From: Isoetes taiwanensis
Lineage: Eukaryota > Streptophyta > Lycopodiopsida > Isoetales > Isoetaceae
Assembly (NCBI GenBank): GCA_021234155.1
Contig: JAJEKV010000037.1
Coordinates: forward strand, 124,001 to 188,000
Direction of reading: 5' to 3'
DNA length: 64,000 bases
Shown here: positions 2,393 to 64,000 of the stretch, in pieces
How positions within the stretch are numbered: position 1 is the stretch's first letter
How the letters are laid out: each line of letters opens with the position of its first letter
The notes under the pieces: generated by a model
What the model was told of the DNA's origin: nothing
Database searches by the model: none
What the model saw: the letters and a program-made list of their open reading frames with translations, nothing else
Translations under genes and position numbers: made by a program

Positions 2393-4702
2393 TATATTGA
2401 TAATGGCATTCACATAAAGGATGCCCCGAGTGTTGCAGTGCAACTCAGATAGTAACACTTATAGTGATGCAGTCAGAAAAATACTCTAAAGGCATGTCCC
2501 ACTGTCTCACAAAGAAGAAACTTTAGAGTTATGAATCTAGAACATGCAATTAACCCCCAAAGAGTTCGATTCAACCCGCAAAAGCAAAGATCAAAAGTCA
2601 ATGAGGAGATAGAGCCACTTATGACACTTGTGTTGTGAAGGCTAATCATAAATATACTTTCTTACCTCGGTGTTTAAGCAGGTCCACATCAATGTATTAG
2701 GATCTGAAGCATAATTTCTGGTCATTACCAAAGTTGTTTGGGCACTTCCACATCAAGTTATATCGATTCTACCCCTTAAATTCACCATTCATGGACCACT
2801 CCCCTTATGCCTTTTGGCTACGTCACAGGAAAATGGTCCAAGCAGCAGGATTATGACCAAGATTTGGGCTTTTCCGGTACAAATTTTGGGTACCGATGCC
2901 ACTATGCCAGATTTGGAGCCTTGCAACCGATTTTGAACACCAAAATCTGAAACAGCGATTCCGCTTTTGCTTCAATCCAAAGGGAAAGGGTTTCTCCAAA
3001 GGTGCCAAAAGAAATATAGACAGACAATGGATCCGATCAAACTTCATAGCTTTCAAAACGATTCTCCATGCAATAGGTTTTGAGAGCAACCGATCCCCAG
3101 AGCTTTCTAGCTTTCTGGTTTTCATAGAGCTTTCTAGCTATGGTGGAAGAAACAACCTAGAATAAGAGAAAACGCTCCTACAGAAACCTTGTGTTGCACA
3201 TAAGCCTTGATCCCTGGAATGCAAAGATGAAAAATGTTAGGGTTTGGATATCCTGCATGCAGAGATGCAGGAGACGATGGAAGAACAGAACATAGGTACA
3301 AAAGCACCCAAAATGTTCCAGAATTATATACAAAACACTTTTTACAACTTACCAAATCCGCATAAAAAGGGCCACTCAGAATCGAACTGTTAATTCCATT
3401 GCCTTCAAGTCTTTTGTGGCTCTCGATGGCACCAAAGAATGCTCTGCTGGTCCGCTATCCAGAATAAGAGGCAATCCATAGCAAATAAAGTTCCTACCTC
3501 AAAACAATAACTGATCCCGGCCCGTTTGCTCAAGATGCAGCTTCGAACCATCTGTTCACTTTGTTTGTTTCTTCCATTCTCATTGAATGAACTCGTAACT
3601 TTGAATGGCACAACATGCCCTATCATGAGCACTTTTTTGGAACAAAGGAGAATCTGCACAACTTTCTAATGCATGTGCTTCAAGCGAGCAGGAATACGAC
3701 AACCTTCCAGCACGGTCGCCTTAAAGCTACAACCACCAGTTCACCATCACCCATTTCGCATCAACCTTTATAAGGACTTATCATCTTTTCAGAGAGCAGG
3801 CTTCTATCTGATAGAAAATCTGTGAATAAAGCCATGTGTACGTCGGCCTTAAGCAATTCAAAGCTCGTTCTGCATGTAATATTCTAGGCTTGCTGCTCAG
3901 CCATGATCAAACCTTCATTCCAGACTCTGATCTGTGAATAAAGCCATATGTGTAGGCGGGTGTGTAGGTCGGCCTTAAGCAACTCAAATCTCTATCTGCA
4001 TATAGTATTCTGGGCTTGCTGCTCAGCCATGATCAAACCTTCATTCCAGACTCTGATTTCTACTTATATAACGGGTTTACAGAGCGAAGACGAAAGAAAA
4101 ATAGGGGTGTCTCCAGAACATGAAAGAACAGTGCATAAGCCGAAGAGAGGTCAAAAACCCTAACCCCAATACTTTGTTGCCAGGCATAAAAGGAAATTGT
4201 AGCAAAGCAGCTCCATAGCAAGCACCAAGGGTTCTCAAACTCGCTCCAAAAAAAAGAGACAAGTTGTTTTAAGCTCACTATTTTTATCGATAATAAGCCA
4301 AACATGAATGGTCGGGTTTCTAGGCTAGTGACGCTGCAAAGAATCATAATTTTGTTGGCTATACAACCGCTAAGCTTCCAATCTCCCCTCTCAAGAAGAG
4401 GTGGAGACTCGCCGAGCCTTTCGAAACTCAAAACACTCGTAAATAGCGCCAAAGAAATTTTTGGTGTATAAAAGGGCGTGGATCGGTACCGCCTAAGTTT
4501 AGGGCAAATTACATCCCGAATCTCTAAATTAATATCAATCAAGACCGCTAAAATTAGGGCGGGGTCCATTACTTGCACTAAAACATTATAATATAAGATT
4601 CACCATCAAGGGATGCCTCCTTGTCATATTCAAAGCTATATTTTGACGAAATTATACTTCAATAATATTCTCTTGTCACAAATGCTCTTAAGTTTTCATC
4701 AT

Positions 4703-4773
4703 GTCGATGTAGTATAGTGGTGAGTATTCCCGTTTGTCACGCTGGTGACCCGGTTCGATCCCCGCATCGGGCG
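4703..4773 (+). pseudogene. tRNA-Asp-like copy A1, arms altered
   Basis: The acceptor 5' half, D arm and A box are intact. The anticodon arm reads CCCGTTTGTCACGCTGG with GTC kept. One base is lost in the T stem and one G gained in the 3' acceptor strand. It may be a real gene with consensus errors. Confidence 0.7.
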
Positions 4774-4900
4774 TGATTTTTGTTCTATCTCTCATGTGCA
4801 TATCTTTCCAAAGTGTAGCACATGAATATGACTCCCACCCCTTAAAAGTCGTGGTGTTATGACTCCTACCCCTTCAAAGTTGTGTTAGAGTTTCTATAAT

Positions 4901-4971
4901 GCCAATCTCGCATAGTGTTGAGTGTTCTTGGTCATGCCTACAATCTGTTCGATTCCACCAACAAGACGAGG
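4901..4971 (+). pseudogene. psi1, decayed tRNA-Asp copy
   Basis: Aligns to the tRNA over the D arm (CATAGTGTTGAGTGTTC), the GTC anticodon (CTTGGTCATGC) and the B box (GTTCGATTCC). The acceptor strands no longer pair and no T run follows. Confidence 0.7.
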
Positions 4972-5066
4972 ATGTGTCTCCTTGTCCTATTCAAAGCCAT
5001 ATTTCGATCGAGGCTGCAATTCCAAAGTATTTCATTGTCACAATTACATTAGAATCTTCGATCGTG

Positions 5067-5140
5067 GTCGATGTAGTATAGTGGTGAGTATTCCCTACCG
5101 TCCACGCTGGTGACCCGGTTCGATCCCCTAAGATCGGGCG
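5067..5140 (+). pseudogene. tRNA-Asp-like copy B1, arms altered
   Basis: The anticodon arm reads CCCTACCGTCCACGCTGG. The 3' acceptor strand is disrupted (CCCCTAAGATCGGGCG). A T5 run follows at once. Confidence 0.65.
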
Positions 5141-5953
5141 CAATTTTTGGCCTAACTTGTCCAAAATAATGCATATATTCAAAATCGAGATCTTATATTC
5201 AAAATGAACTAAAAGATTCCTATTTAAGAGACGGTGACGAGAAAAAGAAGTTAGTATCGACACACCGGGATCCGACGGTGTCGCCTAGTTCATCAAAACT
5301 ATTTCAAGGACCTAGCTTTTAAGATATAGATAGCTTCCAACCCAACCGGCTTTGATCTCAAGCTCCGGTAAACCATGGCAACGAATTGTCAAGACAAAGA
5401 TCCACTCGTGATCAAAAGGCTCTAGAAAAAGCAATGCCTTTCTTTGGAACCCTATTGCATAGTTACGGCAGTACAAAGCTGTCGCCTTTGAGCCCTTGTT
5501 ATGCTTCCATCCATTTCACACATGCGGATGGAGTACGGCAATTGCCGCTGGATTCGCAACTAGATGCCCCCGACGGTTCCAACGAGCAAAAATCACCTCC
5601 ATCGGATCGGGCGGATGCAGAGATATGCCAAACCAAGTCAAGCTTCTAGTTATGGATGTCTCCGCGTCTTTATATTTGTTTCTTTTTTAGCGCACCTTTT
5701 AGGCAGTCATATTTGAGTGCTTACCGAGGTCCCTTTCATTGCCTTGAGTGCTTACCGAGGTTCCTTTCATTGCCTTGCTTTTTGCCTCCCTCTTCATTTG
5801 CCTTCACTTAGGTCCATGGGCTAATTCACCAAAAGTTCATATTTCATAATTCGTCATCAAGGGATGCCTCCTTGTCATATTCAAAGCTATATTTTGACGA
5901 AATGATACTTCAATAATATTCTCTTGTCACAAATGCTCTTAAGTTTTCATCAT

Positions 5954-6023
5954 GTCGATGTAGTATAGTGGTGAGTATTCCCCGTCACACGCTGGTGACC
6001 CGGTTCGATCCCCCCAATCGGCG
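5954..6023 (+). pseudogene. tRNA-Asp-like copy A2, arms altered
   Basis: The anticodon arm is shortened to CCCCGTCACACGCTGG. The T arm has GGTTCGATCCCCCC, then AATCGGCG. Confidence 0.65.
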
Positions 6024-6147
6024 TGATTTTTGTTCTATCTCTAGTGCATATCTTTCCAAAGTGTAGCACATGAATATGACTCCCACCCCTTAAAAGTCGG
6101 TGTTATGACTCCTACCCCCTTCAAAGTTGTGTTAGAGTTTCTATAAT

Positions 6148-6220
6148 GCCAATCTCGCATAGTGTTGAGTGTTCTTGGTCATGCCGGGCGCGACCGTTCG
6201 ATTCCACCACCGCATCGAGG
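6148..6220 (+). pseudogene. psi2, decayed tRNA-Asp copy
   Basis: TGGTCATGCCGGGCGCGACC is followed by the B-box word GTTCGATTCC. No terminator. Confidence 0.65.
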
Positions 6221-6316
6221 ATGCGCCTCCTTGTCCTATTCAAAGCCATATTTCGACGAGGCTGCAATTCCAAAGTATTTCGTTGTCACAATTATGCATT
6301 AGAATCTTCGATCGTG

Positions 6317-6386
6317 GTCGATGTAGTATAGTGGTGAGTATTCCCTACCGTCACGCTGGTGACCCGGTTCGATCCCCGCAAGATCG
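6317..6386 (+). pseudogene. tRNA-Asp-like copy B2, arms altered
   Basis: The anticodon arm reads CCCTACCGTCACGCTGG. The 3' end is CGCAAGATCGCAC, so acceptor pairing is broken. Confidence 0.65.
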
Positions 6387-7200
6387 CACAATTTTTGGCC
6401 TAACTTGTCCAAAATAATGCATATATTCAAAATCGAGATCTTATATTCAAAATGAACTAAAAGATTCCTATTTAAGAGACGGTGACGAGAGAAAAGAAGT
6501 TAGTATCGATTACACCGGATCCGACGGTGTCACTTAGTTCATCAAAACTATTTCAAGGACCTAGCTTTTAAAATATAGATAGCTTCCAACCCAACCGGCT
6601 TTGATCTCAAGTCCCGGTAAACCATGGCAATGCAATTGTCGAAGACAAAGATCCACTGCATCAAAAGGCTCTAGAAAAAGCAATGCCTTTCTTTGGAACC
6701 CTATTGCATAGTTACGGTGTACAAAGCGGCCTTTTTGAGCCCTTGTTATGCTTCCATCCATTTCACACATGCAGATGGAGTACGGTAATTGCCGCTGGAT
6801 TCGCAACTAGATGCCCCTGACGGTTCCAACGGAGCAAAAAATCACCTCCATCGACCGGGCGATGCGTAGATATGCCAAACCAAGTCAAGCTTCTAGTTAT
6901 GGATGTCTCCGCGTCTTTAAATTTGTTTTTTTTTAGCGCACCTTTAGGCAAATCATATTTGAGTGCTTACCTGAGGTCCCTTTCATTGCCTTGAGTGCTT
7001 ACCTGAGGTTCCTTTCATTGCCTTGCTTTTTTGCCTCCCTTTCATTTGCCTTCACTTAGGTCCATGGGCTAATTCACCAAAGTTCATATTTCATAATTCA
7101 CCATCAAGGGATGCCTCCTTGTCATATTCAAAGCTATATTTTGACGAAATGATACTTCAATAATATTCTCTTGTCACAAATGCTCTTAAGTTTTCATCAT

Positions 7201-7270
7201 GTCGATGTAGTATAGTGGTGAGTATTCCTTTGTCACGCTGGTGACCCGGTTCGATCCCCTCGCATCGGCG
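7201..7270 (+). pseudogene. tRNA-Asp-like copy A3, arms altered
   Basis: The anticodon arm CCTTTGTCACGCTGG keeps the GTC loop but the stem is mispaired. There is extra TC before the intact 3' acceptor GCATCGGCG. Confidence 0.65.
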
Positions 7271-7396
7271 CGATTTTTTGTTCTATCTCTAGTGCATATC
7301 TTTCCAAAGTGTAGCACATGAATATGACTCCCACCCCTTAAAAGTCGTGGTGTTATGACTCCTACCCCTTCAAAGTTGTGTTAGAGTTTCTATAAT

Positions 7397-7467
7397 GCCA
7401 ATCTCGCATAGTGTTGAGTGTTCTTGGTCATGCCGGGCGACCGCGTTCGATTCCACCAAATACGAGG
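7397..7467 (+). pseudogene. psi3, decayed tRNA-Asp copy
   Basis: The D-arm and B-box words are present. The 3' part is CCACCAAATACGAGG, with no acceptor partner. Confidence 0.65.
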
Positions 7468-7561
7468 ATGTGTCTCCTTGTCCTATTCAAAGCCATATTT
7501 CGACGAGGCTGCAATTCCAAAGTATTTCATTGTCACAATTGCGGTAGAATCTTCGATCGTC

Positions 7562-7631
7562 GTCGATGTAGTATAGTGGTGAGTATTCCCGTCATTACAC
7601 GCAGACCCGGGTTCGATCCCCGGCATCGGCG
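7562..7631 (+). tRNA. tRNA-Asp(GUC): tRNA-Asp copy B3, anticodon arm scrambled
   Basis: The T arm and acceptor are perfect (ACCCGGGTTCGATCCCCGG then CATCGGCG). The anticodon arm reads CCCGTCATTACACGCA, which cannot form the stem. The damage is confined to the GC-rich arm. Confidence 0.6.
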
Positions 7632-9108
7632 CAATTTTTGGCCTAACTTGTCCAAAATAATGCATATATTCAAAATCGAGATCTTATATTCAAAATGAAC
7701 TAAAAGATTCCTATTTAAGAGACGGTGACGAGAGAAAAGAAGTTAGTATCAGATTACACCGGATCTCGACGGTGTCGCTAGTTCATCAAAAACTATTTCA
7801 AGGACCTAGCTTTTAAGATATAGATAGTTTCCAACCCAACCGGCTTTGATCTCAAGTTCTGCAAAACCATGGCAACGCACAGCCTTTGTTATGCTTCCAT
7901 CCATTTCTCACACATGCGGATGGAGTACGGCAATTGCCGCTGGGATTCGGCAACTAGATGCCCTGACGGTTCCAACGGAGCAAAAATCACCTCCATCGGA
8001 CCGGCGGATGCAGAGATATGCCAAACTGAAGTCAAGCTTCTAGTTATGGATGTCTCCGTGCCTTTAAATTTGTTTCTTTTTTTAGCGCACCTTTTAGGCA
8101 GTCATATTTGAGTGCTTACCGGAGGTCCCTTTCATTGCCTTGAGTGCTTACCGGAGGTTCCTTTCATTGCCTTGCTTTTTGCCTCCCTCTTCATTTGCCT
8201 TCACTTAGGTCCATGGGCTAATTCACCAAAAGTTCATATTTCATAATCTGTAATGGTACTCAGCCTTGGGCATAACTTGGAAGTCCAGAAATGTGGTGAC
8301 CTGCAATGAGAAAAGTGTGCCAAGAATATGTTGTAGGATTCATTCATTCAAAGCGTTGACGAAGTATAATTTAACATGCATTCAATTGTGGGAGGGGTCA
8401 TCGAGCCATGTAAATCATTGATTGATTGTCTAACCGAAAGCAATGTGTTAGAGCACATCGCCGTGATAATTTTCTCAGAGGTGCCGTGAAACAAAAGAAT
8501 GATGTTAGTTGATATATATTTTTGGATGCAAAAGCAAATATGTCTTATTCTAGAGTACCTAAGTTCGTATGTCTTCAATACCTAAGTTGTGGCGCTCCCC
8601 GAATGCAAGGCTTGACGTTGTATATATAAAAGTGACAAAAGTAAGGGCTCGAAAGGGCTAAAGTTCTTTACAAAAAAGGCCTTTATCCATGGGTACACCC
8701 TCCTTTCATAATGATCCTTGTAGTTGTAGTTAGAGGAAAAGGACATGGCATATGTTGAAATCTAGAAGCAACATTTATATGCATATGCTAGAATCTAGAA
8801 CCAAAGATTTCTAAAAATTGTTCCGCTTTTAGGCTCTTTTTATAATAACCATTATTAACGCTTTGTTAGAACCAACATTTCTATTCTTAAATGTGTTGCT
8901 TTTTGAGCTATCTAGCAAATTCTATTGCATATTGTTTAGTTGAGGAATTTTAGATTATTTTGGGCAATGTTTTTCTTTAGTCCAATGATAAGTATGATCA
9001 AATGGGTTATTTACAATCAAGAAGCTAAAAACGCTTTGAAAAGACGTAGCAAACTTTCCTTATGAAATAATATTTTTTCAATGTACAAATGTTCTTTTTA
9101 CTTTTTAA

Positions 9109-9639
9109 GATCCAAATATCACCTTGAAGAACCGAGCCAAAATGTTACCGTAATGGAGAATGCACAAAACGATTTAAGGTGATGCCAAGCATGGGAATGA
9201 AGATGCCTTGTCTCAGCTTGCAATTGCCATGATTGACACATAAGTTAATCATTTAGAACTCAAATATATCTCCCCCTCTATATATCATGTAATCGACAAT
9301 GCTTTTTATCTAGAACATGGGATGTACAATGAAGCCGAGGTGTCCCGGCCCGTATGAAGAAGTGGAAGCCAGCAAATGTTCTTACTTACACCTCCTTAAT
9401 CCATGCATGCAAGATCGCAGTAATATGGTCATTTAGTGCATATAATTTGTGATCATTTTTAGATAATCATGCCCGATAATCATGCCCGCCTTCAAGATCA
9501 CATGATCAAGCCAAGATTTGAAGAAATGAAATCAAATGATATTCCAGCCAGATACATTGGCCTATTGTGCTCGCTTTGAAACCTTTTAATGAAGGTGACC
9601 AAGCACATTCAACACTTGTGCTTGGTGAGGATGAAGTAA
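9109..9639 (+). pseudogene. PPR protein gene fragment (L2)
   Basis: Same three exon-like pieces as in L1. The middle one is frame-disrupted around GAAGCCGAGGTGTCC, but CCAAATGTTCTTACTTACACC (PNVLTYT) is kept. The last ends ATGAAGTAA at 9631-9639. Confidence 0.65.
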
Positions 9640-9807
9640 GGAGAAGTCAAGTTAAATGAGACAAAGATATGTGGAGCTCTTTTTCTGCTTTGCAGTAGTA
9701 TGTGTTTTCCTAGTCACCAAGGAGATAGATACTTTGAGCTATTTCAAGATAAATAAAAATGTTAACCTAATATCAAGAGTGCATACAGCCAGCAACAATG
9801 GTTTACG

Positions 9808-10482
9808 CGGTAATGATCATCGATCACCGCATCGCTTGTTATAATGTGTCGCAAGGTGTCCCTCCGCAAATGCTAATCCAATAGCATTTGCAATACCTAG
9901 CAAGAAGACATGCAATAAAATTAAAGAGAGAGGAGATAATGCATTATTTGAACAACAAAAAAGAGGACCATCGGGCCATTTACCTATTGTGTGTCTCAAA
10001 GTTTCCGTGGATGTGTCCGGGCGTGGTGCTCCCCATTGTCTAAATTGTTTTAATTGCTCCATCTAAAAAATACACCGACGGTGGAAATATAATTAACAAA
10101 TAGTTCTTGCATGTGATGGTGACTCGGGGAAATATAATTAGCAAATAGTTCTCGCATGGTGATGAAAAATCAAATGGGAAAAATTTCTAAGTGAGAACAT
10201 GCTAAAACATGCAAGACATTTCAACATTAAAACCACAAAGAATCCAATATCACCATCGGATAAGAACTTTTCCTAATTGATCAACCAAGAAACAGATACT
10301 TATAGAGACACCGCTGTAGTCCTGAAGATGTAATAATGCATACTTAAGCATGCAACCATTACCGATGACAAAGTGCAGCTCATGTTCCATCATTGCCTTC
10401 AGATTTAACATAGCCGACATCATTGTAGTCCGTGTATAAACACACACTTAATCATTGTGAAATATCGATATGGATTTACCAT
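9808..10482 (-). pseudogene. Transketolase gene fragment (L2)
   Basis: MEQLKQFRQWGAPRPDTSTE starts at 10062 and ETLRHTIGK runs to the splice region. Next come ANAIGLAFAEGHLATHYNK (about 9900-9845) and, upstream, IGNGCMLKYALLHLQDYSG. The GHGCM-like and GIANAIG-like blocks identify the family. The frame differs from L1 around FET, probably from an indel. Confidence 0.75.
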
Positions 10483-12767
10483 TGCAAAGACATATTGATA
10501 ATGGCATTCACATAAAGGATGCCCGAGTGTTGCGGTGCAACTCAGATAGTAACACTTATAGTGATGCAGGCCTAAAAATACTTTGTCCTACTGTCTCACA
10601 AAGAAGAAACTTTAGAGTTATGAATCTAGAACATGCAATTAACCCCCAAAGAGCTTCGATTCAACCCGCAAAAGCAAAGATCAAAAAGTCAATGAGGAGA
10701 TAGAGCCACTTATGACACTTGTGTTGTGAAGGCTAATCATAAATATACTTTTCTACCCCTGTTTAAGCAGGTCCACATCAATGTATTAGGATCTGAAGCA
10801 TAATTTCTGGTCATTACCAGGTTGTTTGGGCACTTCCACATCAAGTTATATCGATTCTACCCTTAAATTCACCATTCATGGACCACTCCCCTTATGCCTT
10901 TTGGCTACGCCACAGAAAAATGGTCCAAGCAAACAGATTATGACCAAGATTTGGGCTTTTCCTGCACAAATTTTGGGTACCGATGCCACTATGCCGTGAT
11001 TTGGAGCCTTGCAAACCGGATTTGAACACTAAAATCTGAAACAACATTCCGGCTTTGCTTCAATCCAAAGGAAAGGGTTTCTCCAAGCAGCCAAAAGAAA
11101 TATAGACGCACAATGGATCCGATCAAACTTCATAGCTTTCAAAACGATTCTCCATGCAATAGGTTTGAGAGCAACCGATCCCTTGAGCTTAGCTTTCGGG
11201 TTTTCATAGAGCTTTCTAGCTATGGTGGAAGAAACAACCTAGAATAAGAGAAAACGCCTCCTACAAAACCTTTGTGTTGCACATAAGCCTTGATCCCCTC
11301 GAATGCAAAGATGAAAAATGTTAGGTTTGATATCCCCGCATGCGTAGATGCAGAGACGATGGAAGAACGTAACATAGGTACAAAAGCACCCAAAATGTTC
11401 CGAATTATATACAAAACACTTTTACAACTTACCAAATCCTCGCATAAAAAGGGCCACTCTCGAATCGAATCATAATTCCATTGCCTTCTCAAGTCTTTGT
11501 GGCCTCGATGGCACCAAAGAATGCTCGCTGGTCCGCTATCCAGAATAAGAGGCAATCCATAGCAAATAAAGTTCCTACCTCAAAACAATAACTCGATCCC
11601 GCCCGCTTGCTCAAGATGCGCTTCAACCATCTCGCTCACTTTGTTTGTTTCTTCCATTCTCATTGAATGAACTCTCAGAACTTTGAATGGCACAACATGC
11701 CCTATCATGAGCACTTTTTGGAACAAAGGAGAATCAAGACAACTTTCTAATGCATGTGCTTCAAGCGAGCAGAATACGACAACCTTCCAAAGACGGTCAG
11801 CCTTTAAAGCTACAACCACCACCACCATCACCCATTTCGCATCAACCTTATAAGGACTTATCATCTTCAGAGAGCAGGCTTCTATCCGATAGAAAATCCG
11901 CGGAATAAAGCCATGTGTACGCCGGCCTTAAGCAATTCAAAGCTCGCTCGCATGTAATATTCTAGGCTTGTTGCCACCATGATCAAACCTTCATTCCGCA
12001 CTGATCCGTGAATAAAGCCATATGTGTAGGGGGTGTAGGTCGGCCTTAAGCAACTCAAATCTCTATCCATATATATAGTATTCCTGCTTGTCGCACCATG
12101 ATCAAACCTTCATTCCGCACTGATTTCTACTTATATAACGGGTTTACAGAGCTTAAGACGAAAGAAAAATAGGGTGTCTCCAGAACATGAAAGAACAAAG
12201 GTATGCATGTCAAGAGAGGTCAAAACCCTAACCCCAATACTTTGTTGCCGCATAAAAGGAAATTGTAGCAAAGCAGCTCCATAGCAAGCACTAAGGGTTC
12301 TCAAACTCGCTCCAAAGAAAAGAGAGATGTTTTTAAGCTCACTATTTTATCGATAATAAGCCAAACATGAATGGTCGGTTTCTAGGCTAGTGACATTGCA
12401 AAGAATCATAATTTTGTTGGCTGCATAACCGCTAAGCTTCCAATCTCCCCGCCCCAAGAAGAGGTGGAGACCTGCCGGAGCCTCTCGAAACTCAAAACAC
12501 TCCTAAATAGCGCCAAAAAAAATTTTTGATGTATAAAAGGGCGGATCGGTACCGCCCAAGTTTAGGGCAAATTACATCCCCACCCCTCAAATTAATATCA
12601 ATCTGCACCGCTAAAATTAGGGCGTGGTCCATTACTTGCACTAAAAACATTATAATATAAGATTCGCCATCAAGGGATGCCTCCCTTGTCATATTCAAAG
12701 CTATATTTTGACGAAATGATACTTCAATAATATTCTCTTGTCACAAATGCTCTTAAGTTTTCATCAT

Positions 12768-12840
12768 GTCGATGTAGTATAGTGGTGAGTATTCCCTACC
12801 TGTCACGCTGGGTGACCCGGTTCGATCCCCGCATCGGGCG
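12768..12840 (+). tRNA. tRNA-Asp(GUC): tRNA-Asp copy A4, slightly altered
   Basis: The anticodon arm CCCTACCTGTCACGCTGGG keeps the CTGTCAC loop with two extra bases. The T stem is one base short and the acceptor has one extra G. A T5 run follows. Confidence 0.6.
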
Positions 12841-12970
12841 CGGATTTTTGTTCTATCTCGCCTTAGTGCATATCTTTTCAAAGTGTAGCACATGAATATG
12901 ACTCCCACCCCTTAAAAGTCTGTGTGTTATGACTCCTACCCCTTCAAAGTTGTGTTAGAGTTTCTATAAT

Positions 12971-13042: not shown

Positions 13043-13136
13043 ATGTGTCCCTTGTCCTATTCAAAGCCATATTTCGACGAGGCTGCAATTCCAAAGTATT
13101 TCATTGTCACAATTAAGATTAGAATCTTTGATCGTG

Positions 13137-53867: not shown

Positions 53868-53939
53868 GTCGATGTAGTATAGTGGTGAGTATTCCTGCCT
53901 GTCACGCGGGTGACCCGGGTTCGATCCCCGGCATCGGCG
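53868..53939 (+). tRNA. tRNA-Asp(GUC): tRNA-Asp(GUC) copy A22, one substitution
   Basis: 72 nt. Identical to the perfect copies except for T in place of C in the 5' strand of the anticodon stem (CCTGC), where T can still pair with G. A TGATTTTTG terminator follows. Likely functional. Confidence 0.93.
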
Positions 53940-53994
53940 TGATTTTTGTTCTATCTCGCCTAGTGCATATCTTTCCAAAGTGTAGCACATGAAT

Positions 53995-54055
53995 ATGACT
54001 CCCACCCCTTAAAAGCTGTGTGTTATGACTCCTACCCCCTTCAAAGTTGTGTTAG
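53995..54055 (+). repeat. 30-bp tandem duplication between A22 and psi23
   Basis: 53995-54024 starts ATGACTCCCACCCCTTAAAAG and 54025-54055 starts ATGACTCCTACCCCCTTCAAAG. Both end in GTGTT, so the segment is an old tandem duplication. It is present in nearly all short units, and the unit-8 and unit-24 insertions broke its first half. Confidence 0.75.
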
Positions 54056-54067
54056 AGTTTCTATAAT

Positions 54068-54140
54068 GCCAATCTCGCATAGTGTTGAGTGTTCTTGGTC
54101 ATGCCGGCGACCCGTGTTCGATTCCACCAGCGCACGAGGA
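54068..54140 (+). pseudogene. psi23, decayed tRNA-Asp copy
   Basis: One of the clearest: GGTCATGCCGGCGACCCG, then TGTTCGATTCCACC. D-arm CATAGTGTTGAG and GTC align to copy A22 without large gaps. Confidence 0.7.
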
Positions 54141-54233
54141 TGTGTCTCCTTGTCCTATTCAAAGCCATATTTCGACGAGGCTGCAATTCCAAAGTATTTC
54201 ATTGTCACAATTGCGATTAGAATCTTCGATCGT

Positions 54234-54304
54234 GTCGATGTAGTATAGTGGTGAGTATTCCCTTTATCCGCGTGGGTGACCGGGTTCGATCCCCGGCATC
54301 GGCG
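54234..54304 (+). tRNA. tRNA-Asp(GUC): tRNA-Asp copy B23, anticodon arm scrambled
   Basis: 71 nt. The acceptor is perfect and the T arm is GGGTTCGATCCCCGG, one C short upstream. The arm CCCTTTATCCGCGTGGG lacks GTC. Confidence 0.6.
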
Positions 54305-55775
54305 CAATTTTTGGCCTAACTTGTCCAAAATAATGCATATATTCAAAATCGAGATCTTATATTCAAAATGAACTAAAAGATTCCTATTTAAGAGGCGGTG
54401 GCGAGAAAAGAAGTTAGTATCAGATTACAAGGGGGATCGTGATTGTCGACTAGTTCATCAAAACTATTTCAAGGACCTAGCTTTTAAGATATAGATAGCT
54501 TCCAACCCAACCGGGCTTTGGATCTCAAGCTCCGGGTAAACCATGGCAGCATAATTAGCCCTTGTTATGCTTCCATCCATTTCTCACACATGCGGATGGA
54601 ATGCGGCAATTCTTTGGAACCCATTTGGGATTCGGCAACTAGATGCCCCTGGCCGGTTCCAAGCGGGCAAAAATCACCTCCATCGGACCGGATCTTGAGA
54701 GATATGCCAAGCTGAAGTCAAGCTTCTAGTTATGGATGTCTCCGTGCCTTTAAATTTGTTTCTTTTTAGCGCACCTTTTAGGCAGATCATATTTGAGTGC
54801 TTTAGGAGGTCCCTTTCATTGCCTTGAGTGCTTACGGAGGTTCCTTTCATTGCCTTGCTTTTTGCCTCCCTCTTCATTTGCCTTCACTTAGGTCCATGGG
54901 CTAATTCACCAAAAGTTCATATTTCATAACTAGTAATGGTAAGGGATTCTTTGGTCAATTCTGTAAATGTGGTTTTGCAATGAGAAAAGTGTGCCAAGAA
55001 TATGTTGTAGGATTCATTCATTCAGGCGTTGACGAAGTATAATTTAACATGCATTCAATTGTGGGAGGGGTCATCGAGCCATGTAAATCATTGATTGATT
55101 GCTCCAACTGAGCAATGTGTTAGAGCACATCGCCTGTATAATTTTCTGTAGGTGCCGTAAAACAAAAGAATGATGTTAGTTGATATATATTTTTGGATGC
55201 AAAAGCAAATATGTCTTATTCTAGAGTACCTAAGTTCGTATGTCTTCAATACCTAAGTTGTGGCGCTCTCCGAATGCAAGGCTTGGACGTTGTATATATA
55301 AAAGTGACAAAAGTAAGGGCTCGAAAGGGCTAAAGTTCTTTACAAAAGGCCTTTATCCATGTAAGTACACCCTCCTTTCATACGATCCTTGTAGTTGTAG
55401 TTAGAGGAAAAGGACATGGCATATGTTGAAATCTAGAAGCAACATTTATATGCATATGCTAGAATCTAGAACCAGCATTTCTAAAAATTGTTCCGCTTTA
55501 GGCTCTTTTTATAATAACCATTATTAACGTTTTGTTAGAACCAACATTTCTATTCTTAAATGTGTTGCTCTTTGAGCTATCTAGCAAATTCTATTGCATA
55601 TTGTTTAGTTGAGGAATTTTAGATTATTTTGGGCAATGTTTTTCTTTAGTCCAATGATAAGTATGATCAAATGGGTTATTTACAATCAAGAAGCTAAAAA
55701 CGTTTTGAAAGAGCGAAGCAAACTTTCCTTATGAAATAATATTTTTCAATGTACAAATGTTCTTTTACTTTTTAA

Positions 55776-56310
55776 GATCCATTTATCGGCTTGAAGGCTG
55801 AGCAAAATGTTACCAGAATGGAGAATGCACAAAACGCATTTAAGGTGATGCCAAGCATGGGAATGAAGATGCCTTGTCTCAGTTGCAATTGCCATGATTG
55901 ACACATAAGCGAATCATTTAGAACTCTGAAATATATCTCCGCCCTATATATCATGTACTGACAATGCTTTTTTTATCTAGAACATGGGATGTACAATGAA
56001 AATTTGGAGGTGTCGGTCGGATGAAGAAGTGTGGAAGCCAGCCAAATGTTCTTACTTACACCTCCTTAATCCATGCATGCAAGATCGCAGGTAATATGGT
56101 CATTTAGTGCATATAATTTGTGATCATTTTTAGATAATCATGCCCGATAATCATGCCCGTCTTCAAGATCACATGATCAAGCCGGTATTTGAAGAAATGA
56201 AATCAAATGATATTCCATGAGGATACATTGGCCTATTGTGCTCGTTTGAAACCTTTAATGAAGGTGACCAAGCACATTCAACACTTGTGCTTGGCAGGAG
56301 GATGAAGTAA
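55776..56310 (+). pseudogene. PPR protein gene fragment (L6)
   Basis: The middle piece reads KKCGSQPNVLTYTSLIHACK then IA before the GT donor. The last piece keeps FEEMKSNDIP, has a one-base loss in the FETFNE region, and stops at 56308-56310. Confidence 0.7.
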
Positions 56311-56481
56311 GGAGAAGTCAAGTTAAATGAGACAGCATATGTGGAGCTCTTTCTTGCTTGCAGTAAGTATGTGTTTCCTTTCTAGTCACCAAGGGAGATA
56401 GATACTTTTGAGCTATTTCAAGATAAATAAAAATGTTAGCGAATATCGATGAAGTGCATCTGACCGGGCAACAATGGTTTT

Positions 56482-57147
56482 TCGTGCAATGATCATCGAT
56501 CATTTGCATCGGGCTTGTTATAATGTCTTGCAAAGGTGTCCCTCTGCATTTTGCTAATCCAATAGCATTTGCAATACCTTAGCAAGAAGACATGCAATAA
56601 AATTAAAGAGAGAGGAGAATCTTGCACATTTGAACAACAAAAAAGAGGACCATCGGTTACTTACCTATTGTGTGTCTCAAAGTTTCGGGATGTCTTTGGC
56701 GTGGTGCTCCCCATTGTCTAAATTGTTTTAATTGCTCCATCTAAAATACACGGCGGTGGAAATATAATTAACAAATAGTTCTGCATGTGATGGTGGCGGT
56801 GGAAATATAATTAGCAAATAGTTACGCATGGTGATGAAAAATCAAATGGGAAAAATTTCTAAGTGAGAACATGCTAAAACATGCAAGACATTTCAACATT
56901 AAAACCCACGACAATCCAATATCACCATCGGATAAGAACTTTTCCTAATTGATCAACCAAGAAGCGGATACTTATAGAACCTTTTTGTAGTGCAAAGATG
57001 TAATAATGCATACTTAAGCATGCAACCATTACCGGATAATGATGACTCATGTTCCATCGGCGTCTTAAATTTAACATAGCCGGACATCATTGTAGTCGGT
57101 ATAAACACACACTTAATCATTGTGAAATATCGGATATGGATTTACCA
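56482..57147 (-). pseudogene. Transketolase gene fragment (L6)
   Basis: MEQLKQFRQWGAPRQ is kept, with a GTAAGT donor after HTIG. IANAIGL follows. The AAAEGHLAA part is altered by TTTTGC in place of GCTGC. The CMLKYALL block is present near 57000-57030. Confidence 0.72.
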
Positions 57148-59448
57148 TTGCGGTACATATTGATAATGGCATTCACATAAAGGATGCAGGTGTGTTTGCA
57201 GGCAACTACGTATAGTAACACTTATAGTGATGCGGTCAGAAAAATACTCTAAAGGCATGTCCCTCTTGTCTCACGACAAGAAACTTTAGAGTTATGAATC
57301 TAGAACATGCAATTAACCCCCTTTGATTCGATTCAACCTGCAAAAGCAAAGATCAAAAGTCAATGAGGAGATAGAGCCACTTATGACACTTGTGTTGTGA
57401 AGGCTAATCATAAATATACTTTCTTACCTCGGTGTTTAAGCAGGTCCACATCAATGTATTAGGATGACGAAGCATAATTTCTGGTCATTACCAGGTTGTT
57501 TGGGCACTTCCACATCAAGTTATATCGATTCTACCCTTAAATTCACCATTCATGGACCACTCCCCTTATGCCTTTTGGCTCGTCCGCGGGGAAAATGGTC
57601 CAAGCGGCGGGATTATGACCAAGATTTGGGCTTTTCGATTACAAATTTTGGGTACCTGATGCCACTATGCAGATTTGGAGCCTTGCAGCGGTTTGAACAC
57701 CAAAATCTGAAACGGCGATTCCGCTTGCTTCAATCCGATTGGAAAGGGTTTCTCGGTGTGCCAAAAGAAATATAGGCGGACAATGGATCGGATCAAACTT
57801 CATAGCTTTCAAAACGATTCTCCATGCAATAGGTTTTGGAGAGCAAGCGATCCCGAGCTTTCTAGCTTTACGGTTTTCATAGAGCTTTCTAGCTATGGTG
57901 GAAGAAACAACCTAGAATAAGAGAAAGCGGCTCCCTCTGAAACCTTGTGTTGCACATAAGCCTTGATCCACGGAATGCAAAGATGAAAAATGTTAGGGTT
58001 TGGATATCACGCATGCGGAGATCACGAGAGCGATGGAAAAACCAGAACATAGGTACAAAAGCACCCAAAATGTTCGAATTATATACAAAACACTTTTTAC
58101 AACTTACCAAATCTGCATAAAAGGGCCACTCTCGAGAATCGAGCTGTTAATTCCATTGCCTTACGAAGTCTTTTGTGGCTCGGATGGCACCAAAAAAATA
58201 CTCTGCTGGTCGCTATCGAATAAGAGGCAATCCATAGCAAATAAAGTTCCTACCTCAAAACAATAAGCGATCGGCCCGTTTGCTCAAGATGCGACTTGAA
58301 CCATCTGTTCACTTTGTTTGTTTCTTCCATTCTCATTGAATGAACTTCGTAACTTTGAATGGCACAACATGCCCTATCATGAGCACTTTTGGAACAAAGG
58401 AGAATCGCACAACTTTCTAATGCATGTGCTTCAAGCGGCGGGAATCGACAACCTTCCGGCCTGCGGTTCGCCTTAAAGCTACAACCACCGGTTCACCATC
58501 ACCCATTTCGGCATCAACCTTATAAGGACTTATCATCTTTTCGTAGAAGCGGGCTTCTATCGATAGAAAATCGTGAATAAAGCCATGTGTGCGTCGGCCT
58601 TAAGCAATTCAAAGCTGGTTACGCATGTAATATTCTAGGCTTCTTTGCTTTCGGCCATGATCAAACCTTCATTCGGACTACGATGCGTGAATAAAGCCAT
58701 ATGTGTGGCGGGTGTGTAAATTCGGCCTTAAGCAACTCAAATCTCTATCTGCATATAGTATTCCGGGCTTGCTGCTCAGCCATGATCAAACCTTCATTCG
58801 GACTCGATTTCTACTTATATAGCGGGTTTTTGAGGCGAAAGCGAAAGAAAAATAGGGTGTCTCGAACATGAAAGAAGCGGTGCATAAAAGAAGAGAGGTC
58901 AAAAACCCTAACCCCAATACTTTGTTGCCGGGCATAAAAGGAAATTGTAGCAAAGCAGCTCCATAGCAAGCACCAAGGGTTTACGAAACTCTGTTCGACC
59001 AAAGAGAGCGGTGTTTTTAAGCTCACTATTTTTATCGGATAATAAGCCAAACATGAATGGTGAAGTTTCTAGGCTAGTGACATTGCGGTAATCATAATTT
59101 TGTTGGGTGTACAAGCTGCTTAAGCTTCCAATCTCCCTGTCTCAAGAAGAGGTGGAACTTCTTAGAGAACGGAAACTCAAAACACTTTCTGAAATAAGCT
59201 CAAAGAAATTTTTGATGTATAAAAGTGGATGGATCGGCGGGTCTAAGTTTAGGGCAAATTACATCCGACCCTCGAAATTAATATCAATGCCTTAAAATTA
59301 GGGCGTGGTCCATTACTTGCACTAAAACATTATAATATAAGATTAAGTCATCAAGGGATGCCTCCTTGTCATATTCAAAGCTATATTTTGGCGAGCCCGA
59401 TACTTCAATAATATTCTCTTGTCACAAATGCTCTTAAGTTTTCATCAT

Positions 59449-59515
59449 GTCGATGTAGTATAGTGGTGAGTATTCCTTTGTGGCGCGGGTGACCGGTTCG
59501 ATCCCGGCATCGGCG
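59449..59515 (+). pseudogene. tRNA-Asp-like copy A23, arms altered
   Basis: 67 nt. The arm CCTTTGTGGCGCGGG lacks GTC. The T arm is ACCGGTTCGATCCCGG. The acceptor is intact. Confidence 0.6.
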
Positions 59516-59644
59516 TGATTTTTGTTCTATCTCGCCTAGTGCATATCTTTTCAAAGTGTAGCACATGAATATGACTCCCACCCCTTAAAAGGCATGTGTG
59601 TTATGACTCCTACCCCTTCAAAGTTGTGTTAGAGTTTCTATAAT

Positions 59645-59718
59645 GCCAATCTCGCATAGTGTTGAGTGTTCTTGGTCATGCCCGTGACCCGTGTTCGATT
59701 CCACCCGGTATGCGAGGA
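59645..59718 (+). pseudogene. psi24, decayed tRNA-Asp copy
   Basis: GGTCATGCCCGTGACCCG then TGTTCGATTCCACCCGG. Confidence 0.65.
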
Positions 59719-59811
59719 TGTGTCTCCTTGTCCTATTCAAAGCCATATTTCGACGAGGCTGCAATTCCAAAGTATTTCATTGTCACAATTGCGATTAGAA
59801 TCTTTGATCGT

Positions 59812-59879
59812 GTCGATGTAGTATAGTGGTGAGTATTCCTTTATCAGCGGGTGACCGGGTTCGATCCGAAGCATCGGCG
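59812..59879 (+). pseudogene. tRNA-Asp-like copy B24, anticodon arm short
   Basis: The arm is CCTTTATCAGCGGG. The T arm is GGGTTCGATCCGAA. The acceptor GCATCGGCG is intact. Confidence 0.6.
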
Positions 59880-60667
59880 CAATTTTGGCCTAACTTGTCC
59901 AAAATAATGCATATATTCAAAATCGAGATCTTATATTCAAAATGAACTAAAAGATTCCTATTTAAGAGGCGGTGAGAGAAAAAAGTTAGTATCAGATTAC
60001 TAGGGGATCGGCGGTGTGTCGACTAGTTCATCAAAACTATTTCAAGGACCTAGCTTTAAGATATAGATAGCTTCCAACCCAACCGGGCTTTGGATCTCAA
60101 GCTCCGGGTAAACCATGGCAACGCAATTGTCGAAGACAGCATCCATTCAGATCAAAAGGCTCTAGAAAAAGCAATGCCTTTCTTTGGAACCCTATTGCAT
60201 AGTTACGGTGTAAAAAGCGGTCGTCTTTGAGACCTTGTTATGCTTCCATCCATTTCTCACACATGCGGATGGAGTACGGCAATTGCCGATGGGATTCGGC
60301 AACTAGACGCCCTGACGGTTCCAACGGAGCAAAAATCACCTCCATCGGACCGCCGGATGCAGAGATATGCCAAACTGAAGTTAAGCTTCTAGTTATGGAT
60401 GTCTCCGTGCCTTTAAATTTGTTTCTTTTTTTAGCGCGCCTTTTAGGCAGTCATATTTGAGTGCTTACCGGAGGTTCCTTTCACTGCCTTGCTTTTTGCC
60501 TCCCTCTTAATTTGCCTTCACTTAGGTCACTGGGCTAATTCACCAAAAGTTCATATTTTATAATTCGTCATCAAGGGATGCCTCCTTGTCATATTCAAAG
60601 CTATATTTTGACGAGCCGATACTTCAATAATATTCTCTTGTCACAATTGCTCTTAAGTTTTCATCAT

Positions 60668-60732
60668 GTCGATGTAGTATAGTGGTGAGTATTTCCTTTG
60701 TCAGCGGGTGACGGGTTCGATCCCGGCATCGG
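60668..60732 (+). pseudogene. tRNA-Asp-like copy A24, arms altered
   Basis: The arm TCCTTTGTCAGCGGG keeps GTC. The T stem is short. The last two bases of the tRNA are missing before TGATTTTTG. Confidence 0.6.
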
Positions 60733-60799
60733 TGATTTTTGCTCTATCTCATGGAGTGCATATCTTTCAAAGTGTAGCACATGAATATGACTCCCACCC

Positions 60800-61083
60800 A
60801 CATCCGGGGAGTCTTGGACGCGAGGTCACCTTTGCCCCTTCCCTTTTGTCGTGACTAGGCACTACGGGGTGGTGCATATCTATATATATTGGGATGTTTT
60901 CGCATTTTATATGTGTACGGTTTGTGTGGGGCTGATTAATTCTTTGCCCGCGGTTTTCCCTCGAAAACCCGCCGGTGCGGGGTTTTAATCGAGGCGATGT
61001 CCCCAACTGCGTTTCTTTATTGGGTCCCATAGGCCAGGATTGGTCTGTGGGCGATAAAAGTAACTTCCTTCCTTCCTTCCTTC
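60800..61083 (+). mobile_element. Short insertion with CTTC-repeat tail, copy 2
   Basis: About 284 bp at the same site as the 17861 insertion (CTCCCACCC/TTAAAAGG). Shared text includes GCGAGGTCACCTTTGCCCC, TATATTGGGATGTTT, TTGGTCT and the CTTCCTTCC tail. The middle differs (GAAAACCCGCCGGTGCGGGG here), with a hairpin-capable CCCGCCGGTGCGGG. Same-site placement means the two are copies made by array duplication, not separate insertions. Confidence 0.5.
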
Positions 61084-61143
61084 CTTAAAAGGCTGTGTGT
61101 TATGACTCCTACCCCCTTGCCTTTGTGTTAGAGTTTCTATAAT

Positions 61144-61218
61144 GCCAATCTAGCATAGTGTTGAGTGTTCTTGGTCATCTTGGGTGACGGGTGTTCGATT
61201 CCACCACCCTTACGAGGA
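61144..61218 (+). pseudogene. psi25, decayed tRNA-Asp copy
   Basis: GGTCATCTTGGGTGACGG then GTGTTCGATTCCACC. It lies 60 bp after the insertion. Confidence 0.65.
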
Positions 61219-61311
61219 TGTGTCTCCTTGTCCTATTCAAAGCCATATTTCGGCGAGGCTGCAATTCCAAAGTATTTCATTGCCACAATTGCGGTTAGAA
61301 TCTTTGATCGT

Positions 61312-61376
61312 GTCGATGTAGTATAGTGGTGAGTATTCCTTTGTCCTTGGGTGACGGGTTCGATCCGGCATCGGCG
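61312..61376 (+). pseudogene. tRNA-Asp-like copy B25, arms short
   Basis: 65 nt. The arm is CCTTTGTCCTTGGG. The T arm is ACGGGTTCGATCCGG. The acceptor is intact. Confidence 0.6.
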
Positions 61377-62169
61377 CAATTTTGGCCTAACTTGTCCAAA
61401 ATAATGCATATATTCAAAATCGAGATCTTATATTCAAAATGAACTAAAAGATTCCTATTTAAGAGGCGGTGTGGCGAGAGAAAAAAGTTAGTATCAGTTA
61501 CACGAGGGGATCGGCGGTGTCGACTAGTTCATCAAAACTATTTCAAGGACCTAGCTTTTAAGATATAGATAGCTTCCAACCCAACCGGGCTTTGGATCTC
61601 AAGCTCGGGTAAACCATGGCAGCGCAATTGTGAAGAAGACGGCATCCATTCAGATCAAAAGGCTCTACAAAAGCAATGCCTTTCTTTGGAACCCTATTGC
61701 ATAATTCACGGTGTAAAAGCGGTCGTCTTTGAGACCTTGTTATGCTTCCATCCATTTCTCACACATGCGGATGGAGTACGGCAATTGCCGATGGGATTCG
61801 GCAACTAGACGCCCTGACGGTTCCAACGGAGCAAAAATCACCTCCATCGGACCGGCGGATGCAGAGATATGCCAAACTGAAGTTAAGCTTCTAGTTATGG
61901 ATGTCTCCGTGCCTTTAAATTTGTTTCTTTTTTTAGCGTGCCTTTTAGGCAGTCATATTTGAGTGCTTACCGGAGGTTCCTTTCACTGCCTTGCTTTTTG
62001 CCTCCCTCTTAATTTGCCTTCACTTAGGTCCCTGGGCTAATTCACCAAAAGTTCATATTTTATAATTCGTCATCAAGGGATGCCTCCTTGTCATATTCAA
62101 AGCTATATTTTGACGAGCCGATACTTCAATAATATTCTCTTGTCACAATTGCTCTTAAGTTTTCATCAT

Positions 62170-62241
62170 GTCGATGTAGTATAGTGGTGAGTATTCCCGC
62201 CTGTCACGCGGGTGACCCGGGTTCGATCCCCGGCATCGGCG
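62170..62241 (+). tRNA. tRNA-Asp(GUC): tRNA-Asp(GUC) copy A25, intact
   Basis: Base-for-base identical to copy A19 over all 72 nt, with the same TGATTTTTG terminator. The upstream CACAATTGCTCTTAAG differs at one base from the first-subtype CACAAATGCTCTTAAG. Confidence 0.97.
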
Positions 62242-62369
62242 TGATTTTTGCTCTATCTCGCCGAGTGCATATCTTTCCAAAGTGTAGCACATGAATATGA
62301 CTCCCACCCCTTAAAAGCTGTGTGTTATGACTCCTACCCCCTTCAAAGCTGTGTTAGAGTTTCTATAAT

Positions 62370-62438
62370 GCCAATCTCGCATAGTGTTGAGTGTTCTTGG
62401 TCATGCCGTGACCGTGTTGATTCCACCACCATGCGAGG
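62370..62438 (+). pseudogene. psi26, decayed tRNA-Asp copy
   Basis: GGTCATGCCGTGACCGTG then TTGATTCC (C lost from the B box). Confidence 0.62.
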
Positions 62439-62531
62439 ATGTGTCTCCTTGTCCTATTCAAAGCCATATTTGGTGAGGCTGCAATTCCAAAGTATTTCAT
62501 TGCCACAATTGCGGTTAGAATCTTTGATCGT

Positions 62532-62604
62532 GTCGATGTAGTATAGTGGTGAGTGATTATTCCTTTGTCCAGCGGGTGACCGGGTTCGATCCCGGCATCG
62601 GGCG
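62532..62604 (+). pseudogene. tRNA-Asp-like copy B26, arms altered
   Basis: The D-stem side is enlarged (GTGAGTGATTATTCC). The arm is CCTTTGTCCAGCGGG. The 3' end CATCGGGCG has one extra G. Confidence 0.6.
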
Positions 62605-63394
62605 CAATTTTGGCCTAACTTGTCCAAAATAATGCATATATTCAAAATCGAGATCTTATATTCAAAATGAACTAAAAGATTCCTATTTAAGAGAGGCGGT
62701 GGCGAGAGAAAAAAGTTAGTATCAGATTACACCGGGGATCTGACGGTGTCAGCTAGTTCATCAAAACTATTTCAAGGACCTAGCTTTTAAGATATAGATA
62801 GCTTCCAACCCAACCGGGCTTTGGATCTCAAGCTCCGGGTAAACCATGGCAACGCAATTGTCGAAGACAGCATCCATTCAGATCAAAGGCTCTACAAAAA
62901 GCAATGCCTTTCTTTGGAACCCTATTGCATAATTCACGTGTAAAAGCGGTCGTCTTTGAGACCTTGTTATGCTTCCATCCATTTCTCACACATGCGGATG
63001 GATGCGGCAATTGCCGATGGGATTCGACAACTAGGCACTATACGGTTCCAACGGAGCAAAAATCACCTCCATCGGACCGCCGGATGCAGAGATATGCCAA
63101 ACTGAAGTTAAGCTTCTAGTTATGGATGTCTCCGTGCCTTTAAATTTGTTTCTTTTTTTAGCGCGCCTTTTAGGCAGTCATATTTGAGTGCTTACCGGAG
63201 GTTCCTTTCACTGCCTTGCTTTTTGCCTCCCTCTTAATTTGCCTTCACTTAGGTCCTGGGCTAATTCACCAAAAGTTCATATTTTATAATTCGTCATCAA
63301 GGGATGCCTCCTTGTCATATTCAAAGCTATATTTTTTGGCGGCCGATACTTCAATAATATTCTCTTGTCACAATTGCTCTTAAGTTTTCATCAT

Positions 63395-63459
63395 GTCGAT
63401 GTAGTATAGTGGTGAGTATTCCTTTGTCGCGGGTGACTGGGTTCGATCCGGCATCGGCG
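63395..63459 (+). pseudogene. tRNA-Asp-like copy A26, anticodon arm short
   Basis: 65 nt. The arm is CCTTTGTCGCGGG. The T arm is CTGGGTTCGATCCGG. A TGATTTTTG terminator follows. Confidence 0.6.
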
Positions 63460-63589
63460 TGATTTTTGTTCTATCTCGCCGAGTGCATATCTTTCCAAAG
63501 TGTAGCACATGAATATGACTCCCACCCTTAAAAGGCTTTGTGTGTTATGACTCCTACCCCCTTCAAAGTTGTGTTAGAGTTTCTATAAT

Positions 63590-63664
63590 GCCAATCTCGC
63601 ATAGTGTTGAGTGTTCTTGGTCATCTTGCGTGACCCGTGTTGATTCCACCACCGCATGCGAGGA
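63590..63664 (+). pseudogene. psi27, decayed tRNA-Asp copy
   Basis: GGTCATCTTGCGTGACCCG then TGTTGATTCCACCACCGC. Confidence 0.62.
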
Positions 63665-63757
63665 TGTGTCTCCTTGTCCTATTCAAAGCCATATTTCGAC
63701 GAGGCTGCAATTCCAAAGTATTTCATTGCCACAATTGCGGTTAGAATCTTTGATCGT

Positions 63758-63829
63758 GTCGATGTAGTATAGTGGTGAGTATTCCCGCCTGTCACGCGGG
63801 TGACCCGGGTTCGATCCCCGGCATCGGCG
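63758..63829 (+). tRNA. tRNA-Asp(GUC): tRNA-Asp(GUC) copy B27, intact
   Basis: The only perfect B copy, identical to A19 and A25 over 72 nt although its flanks are of the B type. The upstream text has CCACAATTGCGGTTAGAATC, and CAATTTTTGG supplies the T5 terminator. It shows that B copies can be intact genes. Confidence 0.97.
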
Positions 63830-63840
63830 CAATTTTTGGC
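63830..63840 (+). terminator. Pol III terminator of copy B27
   Basis: CAATTTTTGGC directly after G73. The T5 run is at 63833-63837. Confidence 0.8.
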
Positions 63841-64000
63841 CTAACTTGTCCAAAATAATGCATATATTCAAAATCGAGATCTTATATTCAAAATGAACTA
63901 AAAGATTCCTATTTAAGAGGCGGTGCGAGAGAGAAAAGAAGTTAGTATCAGATTACACGAGGGGATCGGCGATTGTCGACTAGTTCATCAAAACTATTTC

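Follow-up and report, generated by a model that had tools for sequence, protein, structure and literature searches.

Tandem arrays of nuclear tRNA genes are known from animals, where a unit holds genes of several isotypes, as in the 3.18-kb tRNA gene array of Xenopus, with a copy number in the hundreds, and the Asp-Gly-Glu cluster of the rat. Among plants, the SYY (Ser-Tyr-Tyr) and Pro clusters of Arabidopsis likewise repeat a unit of nuclear tRNA genes in tandem, 27 times each (PMC12652284; for this and all other published work cited, our statements refer to the portions of text available). The SYY cluster is DNA-methylated, silent in most tissues and reactivated in root tips, and the same report holds that its silence is probably due to something other than methylation (PMC12308677). 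A tandem run of 28 tRNA-Ile genes in maize and other plant clusters are single-isotype arrays (PMC11700998, PMC12652284), and plant clusters whose neighbours lie no more than 1 kb apart range in size from 2 to 110 genes (PMC12652284). We examined a 64,000-bp stretch of the Isoetes taiwanensis assembly GCA_021234155.1, positions 124001-188000 of contig JAJEKV010000037.1 (C1042), hereafter the window, in which a 72-base tRNA-Asp(GUC) gene is repeated on the + strand of C1042; the array is also present on contig C1103.

This array is a large further case of the known plant tandem tRNA clusters. It is a single-isotype tandem array, as are those of maize and other plants, and differs from them in being tRNA-Asp, in its longer unit and in its 270 assembled copies; compared with the Arabidopsis clusters it is of another isotype, amounts to about 136 units' worth rather than 27, and is only presumed to be methylated and silent. 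The preliminary description of this DNA had pointed to the Tyr/Ser and Pro clusters of Arabidopsis as plant parallels, which the two surveys bear out; in the portions available they name Pro, Tyr-Ser and Ile clusters and no tRNA-Asp array (PMC11700998, PMC12652284), and among the papers listed by an open-access literature search aimed at tRNA arrays there was none on a plant tRNA-Asp array. That description had also raised, as one possibility, a satellite-like repeat born from a tRNA gene. Neither this nor a reading of the degenerate copies as biological decay is upheld, because the damage bears a read-strand-dependent base-calling signature at CG and CHG. The silenced reserve that it named as another possibility may still apply, given an error pattern that suggests methylation and the lack of an upstream CAA in the array genes. 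We consider it very probable that the locus is a methylated tandem tRNA-Asp array whose assembled copies were corrupted by read-strand-specific base calling of nanopore type, and most of their apparent decay is probably non-biological.

Extent and anatomy of the array

The assembly searched comprised 1.66 Gb in 1110 contigs, and it contains an intact rbcL frame that matches Rubisco large chains in the PDB. A BLAST search with a perfect copy gave 301 matches in the 253 kb first assembled from fetched pieces and the window; with missing stretches included, the fetched array held 299 matches at E<=1e-3, made up of 270 main copies (matches at that threshold that include the 5' end) and 29 relics or pieces. 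The main copies lie on C1042 (251, from 180 to 244577, with a last piece of the array at 245674) and on C1103 (19, from 4045294 to 4069545), and none of the 299 matches in the whole fetched array is on the minus strand, as the preliminary description had said of the copies that it saw. Forty of the 270 are letter-perfect; an exact search of the whole genome also found 40, all on these two contigs, which is not the dispersal looked for in a tRNA-derived short interspersed element. The 26-base 5' part (at most one mismatch) occurred 251 times forward and 4 times in reverse in the 1.66 Gb, against 0 for the same pattern read backwards, and among the matches listed (100 of 255) every place was on C1042 or C1103. 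The array is far above chance expectation; it is real as assembled, and bigger than had been stated. It runs past the window on both sides and, since C1042 starts within it, is cut off by the contig end. Unit-like DNA totals 169 kb, which at 1242 bp per unit gives the figure of about 136. No tRNA-Asp copy was found between 62.4 and 97.5 kb of C1042, and the fetched C1042 and C1103 stretches held no plant telomere repeats in runs of at least three.

The window contains 51 main copies and 25 relics, the latter defined as matching a relic over 40 bp or more at E<=1e-6; these counts are slightly below the at least 53 copies and 27 relics first given. It also contains six 4.4-kb inserts and a single 13-N gap. 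Three main copies are letter-perfect (Table 1). ARAGORN called 14 tRNAs, 8 of them Asp(GTC) and 6 others (Val, selenocysteine (SeC), Gly, Gly, Gln and one of undetermined isotype), and 10 sequences reached the Rfam tRNA gathering score; the perfect copies scored 60.9 bits in Rfam and were called Asp(GTC) by ARAGORN, so that they are foldable with the anticodon present. A series of letter-perfect genes in little-damaged units lies at C1042:110-114 kb, as if polished or less methylated.

The clean units of both contigs (n=111) average 1242 +/- 17 bp, and in each of them gene 1 is followed by the relic, then by gene 2, at a distance of about 366 bp from gene 1, and last by a long spacer. This confirms the large tandem nuclear array with two genes and one relic per unit that had been described; its regular 1.25-kb period holds inside blocks, and the array is interrupted in the window. 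Spacings between tRNA genes (250 + 18 on the two contigs) are 355-380 bp in 119 + 9 cases and 840-910 bp in 104 + 7. The locus is a cluster by the plant rule of same isotype, same strand and neighbours <1 kb apart (PMC12652284) and falls outside the stricter rule of at least 3 tRNA genes within 1 kb (PMC11700998), having two per 1.24 kb, or three with the relic included. Gene 1 and gene 2 are preceded by related sequence, 72% identical over 100 bp (score 108, maximum 65 in 500 shuffles), the downstream stretches are weakly related (53 vs 49.5), and the stretch upstream of the relic has no detectable relation to the upstream regions of the two genes. Given the shared upstream regions, a smaller module made of upstream DNA and a gene probably gave rise to the unit. 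Both array genes have a five-T run downstream, and neither has CAA within ten bases upstream, which a by-eye count found in 8 of ten dispersed tRNA-Asp genes; these ten were the best matches and are biased to intact genes. Compared with the canonical plant tRNA-Asp gene, the array gene is distinct at positions 5, 20 and 67, where it combines A5, G20 and T67; the 5/67 pair is found in three of the ten dispersed genes and the position 20 difference in two, and the dispersed genes L039, L043 and L040-L042 have some of these marks.

The array could have been inflated by the assembler or scaffolder, from unmerged haplotypes or overlapping contigs, with a true copy number far lower. This would be compatible with base-calling damage, and we think it unlikely, though with some real chance of being right. 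The 13-N gap is of the size that optical-map scaffolding leaves for overlapping contigs; the order insert, unit, insert, 3.7 kb, insert is found both at C1042 118.4-138.2 kb and at 165.0-184.8 kb; and C1042 62.5-75 kb has an 84% match in the tail of C1103. Away from CG, however, insert copies compared in register were no closer (0.015, 0.035, 0.030) than those out of register (0.0215), 101 copies lie in C1042 1-62.4 kb by itself, and the units carry different variants at sites away from CG, the substitution rate of the spacer being about 1.4%, which speaks against an assembler simply copying one unit. The more particular idea that the left and right scaffold pieces are one locus assembled twice was not supported by the comparison of in-register and out-of-register inserts.

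Two mirror-image kinds of damage

Of the 270 copies, 237 have the first 26 bases (5' end) without any change, and 74 have an intact anticodon stretch CCTGTCACG. By motif the C1042 copies (n=251) sort into 99 of a kind A, 56 of a kind B, 37 perfect, 4 with both kinds and 55 unclassed; those of C1103 (n=19) into 11 of kind B, 3 perfect and 5 unclassed; and those of the window (n=51) into 15 A, 14 B, 4 both, 3 perfect and 15 unclassed. Kind A lies left of the gap, apart from its last copy at C1042 152287, and kind B begins at 157729 and continues from there and on C1103. Units were grouped as A (61 left units) and B (46 right units), with 4 of the 111 (151-157 kb, both kinds) excluded.

Columns within 3 bases of a CG make up 32% of the unit, yet hold 63% (A) and 65% (B) of the differences, which pile up downstream of CG in A and upstream of it in B; this holds without the tRNA and relic columns. 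In the spacer only, the rates at offsets +1, +2 and +3 from CG were 0.158, 0.126 and 0.060 for A and 0.109, 0.043 and 0.026 for B, and at offsets -1, -2 and -3 they were 0.219, 0.092 and 0.086 for B and 0.075, 0.025 and 0.022 for A. The main single change is CGT to CGC in A and ACG to GCG in B, with the CG retained, and these are the same change read from opposite strands. CGT was kept in 216/366 cases in A vs 269/276 in B, ACG in 726/793 vs 246/598, GCG in 364/549 vs 384/414, and CGC in 456/549 vs 274/414. A left unit has on average 2.46 of 6 CGT and 1.10 of 13 ACG broken, and a right unit 0.15 of 6 and 7.65 of 13; three of the 61 left units and three of the 46 on the right run contrary to this rule. 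CHG columns away from CG in the spacer, 17 in number, differed at 0.254 (A) and 0.101 (B) vs 0.023; this CHG share of the damage fits plant methylation, which the array would carry.

True pseudogenes in a silenced, decaying array would make A and B two locally homogenised subfamilies, and we regard this as quite improbable. Local homogenisation does occur in tandem arrays, variants far from CG differ between the left and right halves and look real (columns 334 and 987), and edge copies (C1042 242-245.7 kb; C1103 4045-4047 kb) carry point changes that appear genuine. Decay would not, however, spare the 5' 26 bases in so many copies while the anticodon stretch was lost; CG itself is mostly kept (77% in A, 82% in B) with its neighbour altered, whereas deamination would give CG to TG/CA; and the A/B mirror is found also in the inserts and in non-array DNA, as given below.

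Nor do we give much credence to selection on the A and B boxes of RNA polymerase III (Pol III) for a chromatin or boundary role (TFIIIC sites), with the anticodon free to drift, which seems highly improbable. The 5' part that is so often exact includes the A box, and the B-box TTCGAT is kept in 260 of 270 copies; but the 5' acceptor strand, outside the boxes, is kept too (GTCGATG in 254 of 270, the 3' ATCGGCG in 150 and the two together in 142), the damage falls in the stretch rich in CG and CHG, the genes are no cleaner than the relic at more than 6 bases from CG (substitutions 0.007 and 0.004 vs 0.003), and the mirror in the inserts would be left unexplained. At more than 4 bases from CG, gene 1 is worse than the spacer (0.033 vs 0.0145), and the comparison of these columns brought out no selection on the gene.

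Damage outside the tRNA units and its probable source

The same mirror occurs in DNA outside the tRNA units. Between A-side and B-side copies of the 4.4-kb insert, pairs with CGC in A and CGT in B numbered 43 vs 2 reversed, and ACG/GCG pairs 27 vs 1; by sites these were 12:1 (p 0.003) and 7:1 (p 0.07), with controls outside CG at 5:4 and 3:4. Non-array DNA of C1042 at 62-75 kb compared with the C1103 tail gave 19:1 and 29:1 (controls 1:1 and 5:5), and five further, smaller non-array alignments sum to 7:2 and 31:5. The CGT/ACG mirror expected of a strand-specific artefact is present in units, inserts and non-array DNA, and because insert and non-array DNA have it in common it follows place in the assembly, not sequence family. 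No mutation process known to us would produce a change in one region of an assembly and the complementary change in another, in sequences that are unrelated.

The 5S rRNA arrays of the same genome are tandem Pol III genes with similar CG/CHG-bound damage, and differ from the tRNA-Asp array in gene and promoter type. Their differences were 0.227 at CHG, 0.112 at CG and 0.055 elsewhere, and copies from the arrays on C907 and C13 show recurrent CHG and CG differences beside intact copies. These tests used 15 distinct strings, each about 100 bases or longer and one of them identical to the reference, and left aside 3 of 8 loci (L025-L027), matches below about 100 bases and repeated identical strings. 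The arrays lie at C907:40703530-40709441 and C13:282837-303571 (sampled in L028-L032), where the rRNA annotation may also be corrupted. By comparison, the 5' part of the canonical tRNA-Asp gene finds 13 dispersed places, of which 12 have clean substitutions only or none (one gene, L043, has one C-to-T within a CG); the exception, copy b on C908, has B-like damage and lies in a separate tandem duplication. At C908:3727260-3727669 (L044) two tRNA-Asp genes stand in a 383-bp tandem duplication, 90% identical, one gene clean with three substitutions and the other with the B-like damage.

We suggest the following course of events. The 1.24-kb unit may have arisen by duplication of the smaller module (upstream stretch and tRNA gene) and would then have spread, presumably by unequal exchange of the whole unit, into an array that is probably methylated at CG and CHG and may be silent. 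A sequencer, presumably of nanopore type, would have misread bases beside the modified cytosines in a manner dependent on the strand read, and polishing would have left the misreads unrepaired in near-identical repeats. The consensus left of the N gap would follow one read strand (kind A), and the right part together with C1103 the other (kind B); the damaged copies would be intact in vivo. The error pattern itself suggests methylation of the array, and such damage may mark methylated DNA. In the portions of text available, base modifications are reported to cause systematic nanopore errors in bacteria (PMC10687267), methylation in plants is cited as a probable reason for reduced accuracy (PMC9749173), and strand-specific nanopore miscalls are reported for telomere repeats (PMC9414165). 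The telomere repeats are misrecorded strand-dependently, as here; those errors were put down to similar current profiles of the repeats, whereas we ascribe the present ones to CG/CHG context, presumably methylation.

Several observations weigh against this base-calling interpretation. In 3-mer context, A correlated with reverse-complemented B at Pearson 0.61 (same strand 0.30), with rank correlations pointing the opposite way (0.45 vs 0.58); in 5-mer context the values were 0.36 vs 0.31, with ranks of 0.27 vs 0.46. The control TGT differs between A and B (1340/1647 vs 1186/1242, p 8e-33) and its complement ACA does not (p 0.85); this may perhaps represent real domain variants and CTG in the tRNA. 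CG in the unit is not depleted (observed/expected 0.97), contrary to long-methylated DNA, and there are some deamination-type substitutions (CGA to TGA, 0.10 and 0.09). The kind of damage changes gradually over 145-158 kb, including the four units that carry both kinds, and the copy at 152287 is classed A right of the gap, the sole such copy. The first 5S test, by distance from CG alone, showed no contrast (0.093 near, 0.080 far), which emerged once columns were divided into CG, CHG and neither. The genuine-looking variants of the edge copies and of columns 334 and 987 belong here as well.

If the base-calling reading is right, the apparent decay of tandem Pol III genes as pseudogenes in a plant assembly can be an effect of base calling, as these data suggest, and a simple diagnostic would be CGT to CGC in one region of an assembly and ACG to GCG in another. 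As many of the decayed-looking copies are likely base-reading errors, tRNA counts, isotype calls, decay stories and dating taken from the assembly would mislead; the Val, Gly, Gln and SeC calls by ARAGORN would be damaged Asp copies. Were the copies intact, the array would be over twice the size of the biggest cluster that the available part of the survey names (110 genes, PMC12652284). A further step, which we consider rather improbable, would be that well over 250 intact tRNA-Asp genes form a functional reserve, which is methylated under normal conditions and is opened in certain tissues as SYY is, with the assembly errors as a readable fossil of its methylation.

Interruptions and coordinates of the features

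The array in the window is broken by the six 4.4-kb inserts and by one 4.9-kb foreign stretch beside the 13-N gap (Table 1). Damage around the N run is of kind A to the left, mixed immediately to the right and then of kind B, and the run probably marks where two pieces built separately were joined in scaffolding.

Table 1. Features of the window, in window positions
Feature	Position	Strand	Remarks
4.4-kb insert, A-side copy	190..4598	+	
Array block (tRNA-Asp units)	4599..8247	+	mainly A-type damage
4.4-kb insert, A-side copy	8290..12662	+	
Array block	12663..21099	+	mainly A-type damage; ends inside unit at N gap
13-N run cutting a unit	21100..21112	.	C1042:145100-145112; only N run in fetched array sequence
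Non-array sequence opening right-hand piece	21113..25978	.	4.9 kb; array resumes after
Array block	25979..35730	+	both damage kinds
4.4-kb insert, B-side copy	35770..39869	+	diverged (82%)
Array block	39870..41146	+	right (B) side
4.4-kb insert, B-side copy	41147..45555	+	
Single array unit	45556..46850	+	right (B) side; first gene letter-perfect
Letter-perfect tRNA-Asp(GUC), first gene of that unit	45660..45731	+	five T downstream; ARAGORN, Rfam
Relic tRNA-like sequence of that unit	45860..45919	+	end approximate
Second tRNA-Asp of that unit	46026..46095	+	anticodon arm and T arm damaged
4.4-kb insert, B-side copy	46851..51260	+	reference of insert search
Array block	51261..54965	+	mainly B-type damage
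4.4-kb insert, B-side copy	54966..59342	+	
Array block	59343..64000	+	mainly B-type damage; two perfect copies; continues past window
Letter-perfect tRNA-Asp(GUC)	62170..62241	+	Rfam
Letter-perfect tRNA-Asp(GUC)	63758..63829	+	Rfam

The 4.4-kb insert is present seven times within C1042 118-183 kb, and six of these copies belong to the window; the insert is low in CG (observed/expected 0.53), and several copies contain a 43-bp tandem duplication. Large related non-array segments interrupt or border the array on both contigs (C1042:62362-97467; C1103:4048000-4060000 and 4070000-4083707), and these have internal repeats, which are direct and, on C1042, inverted as well.

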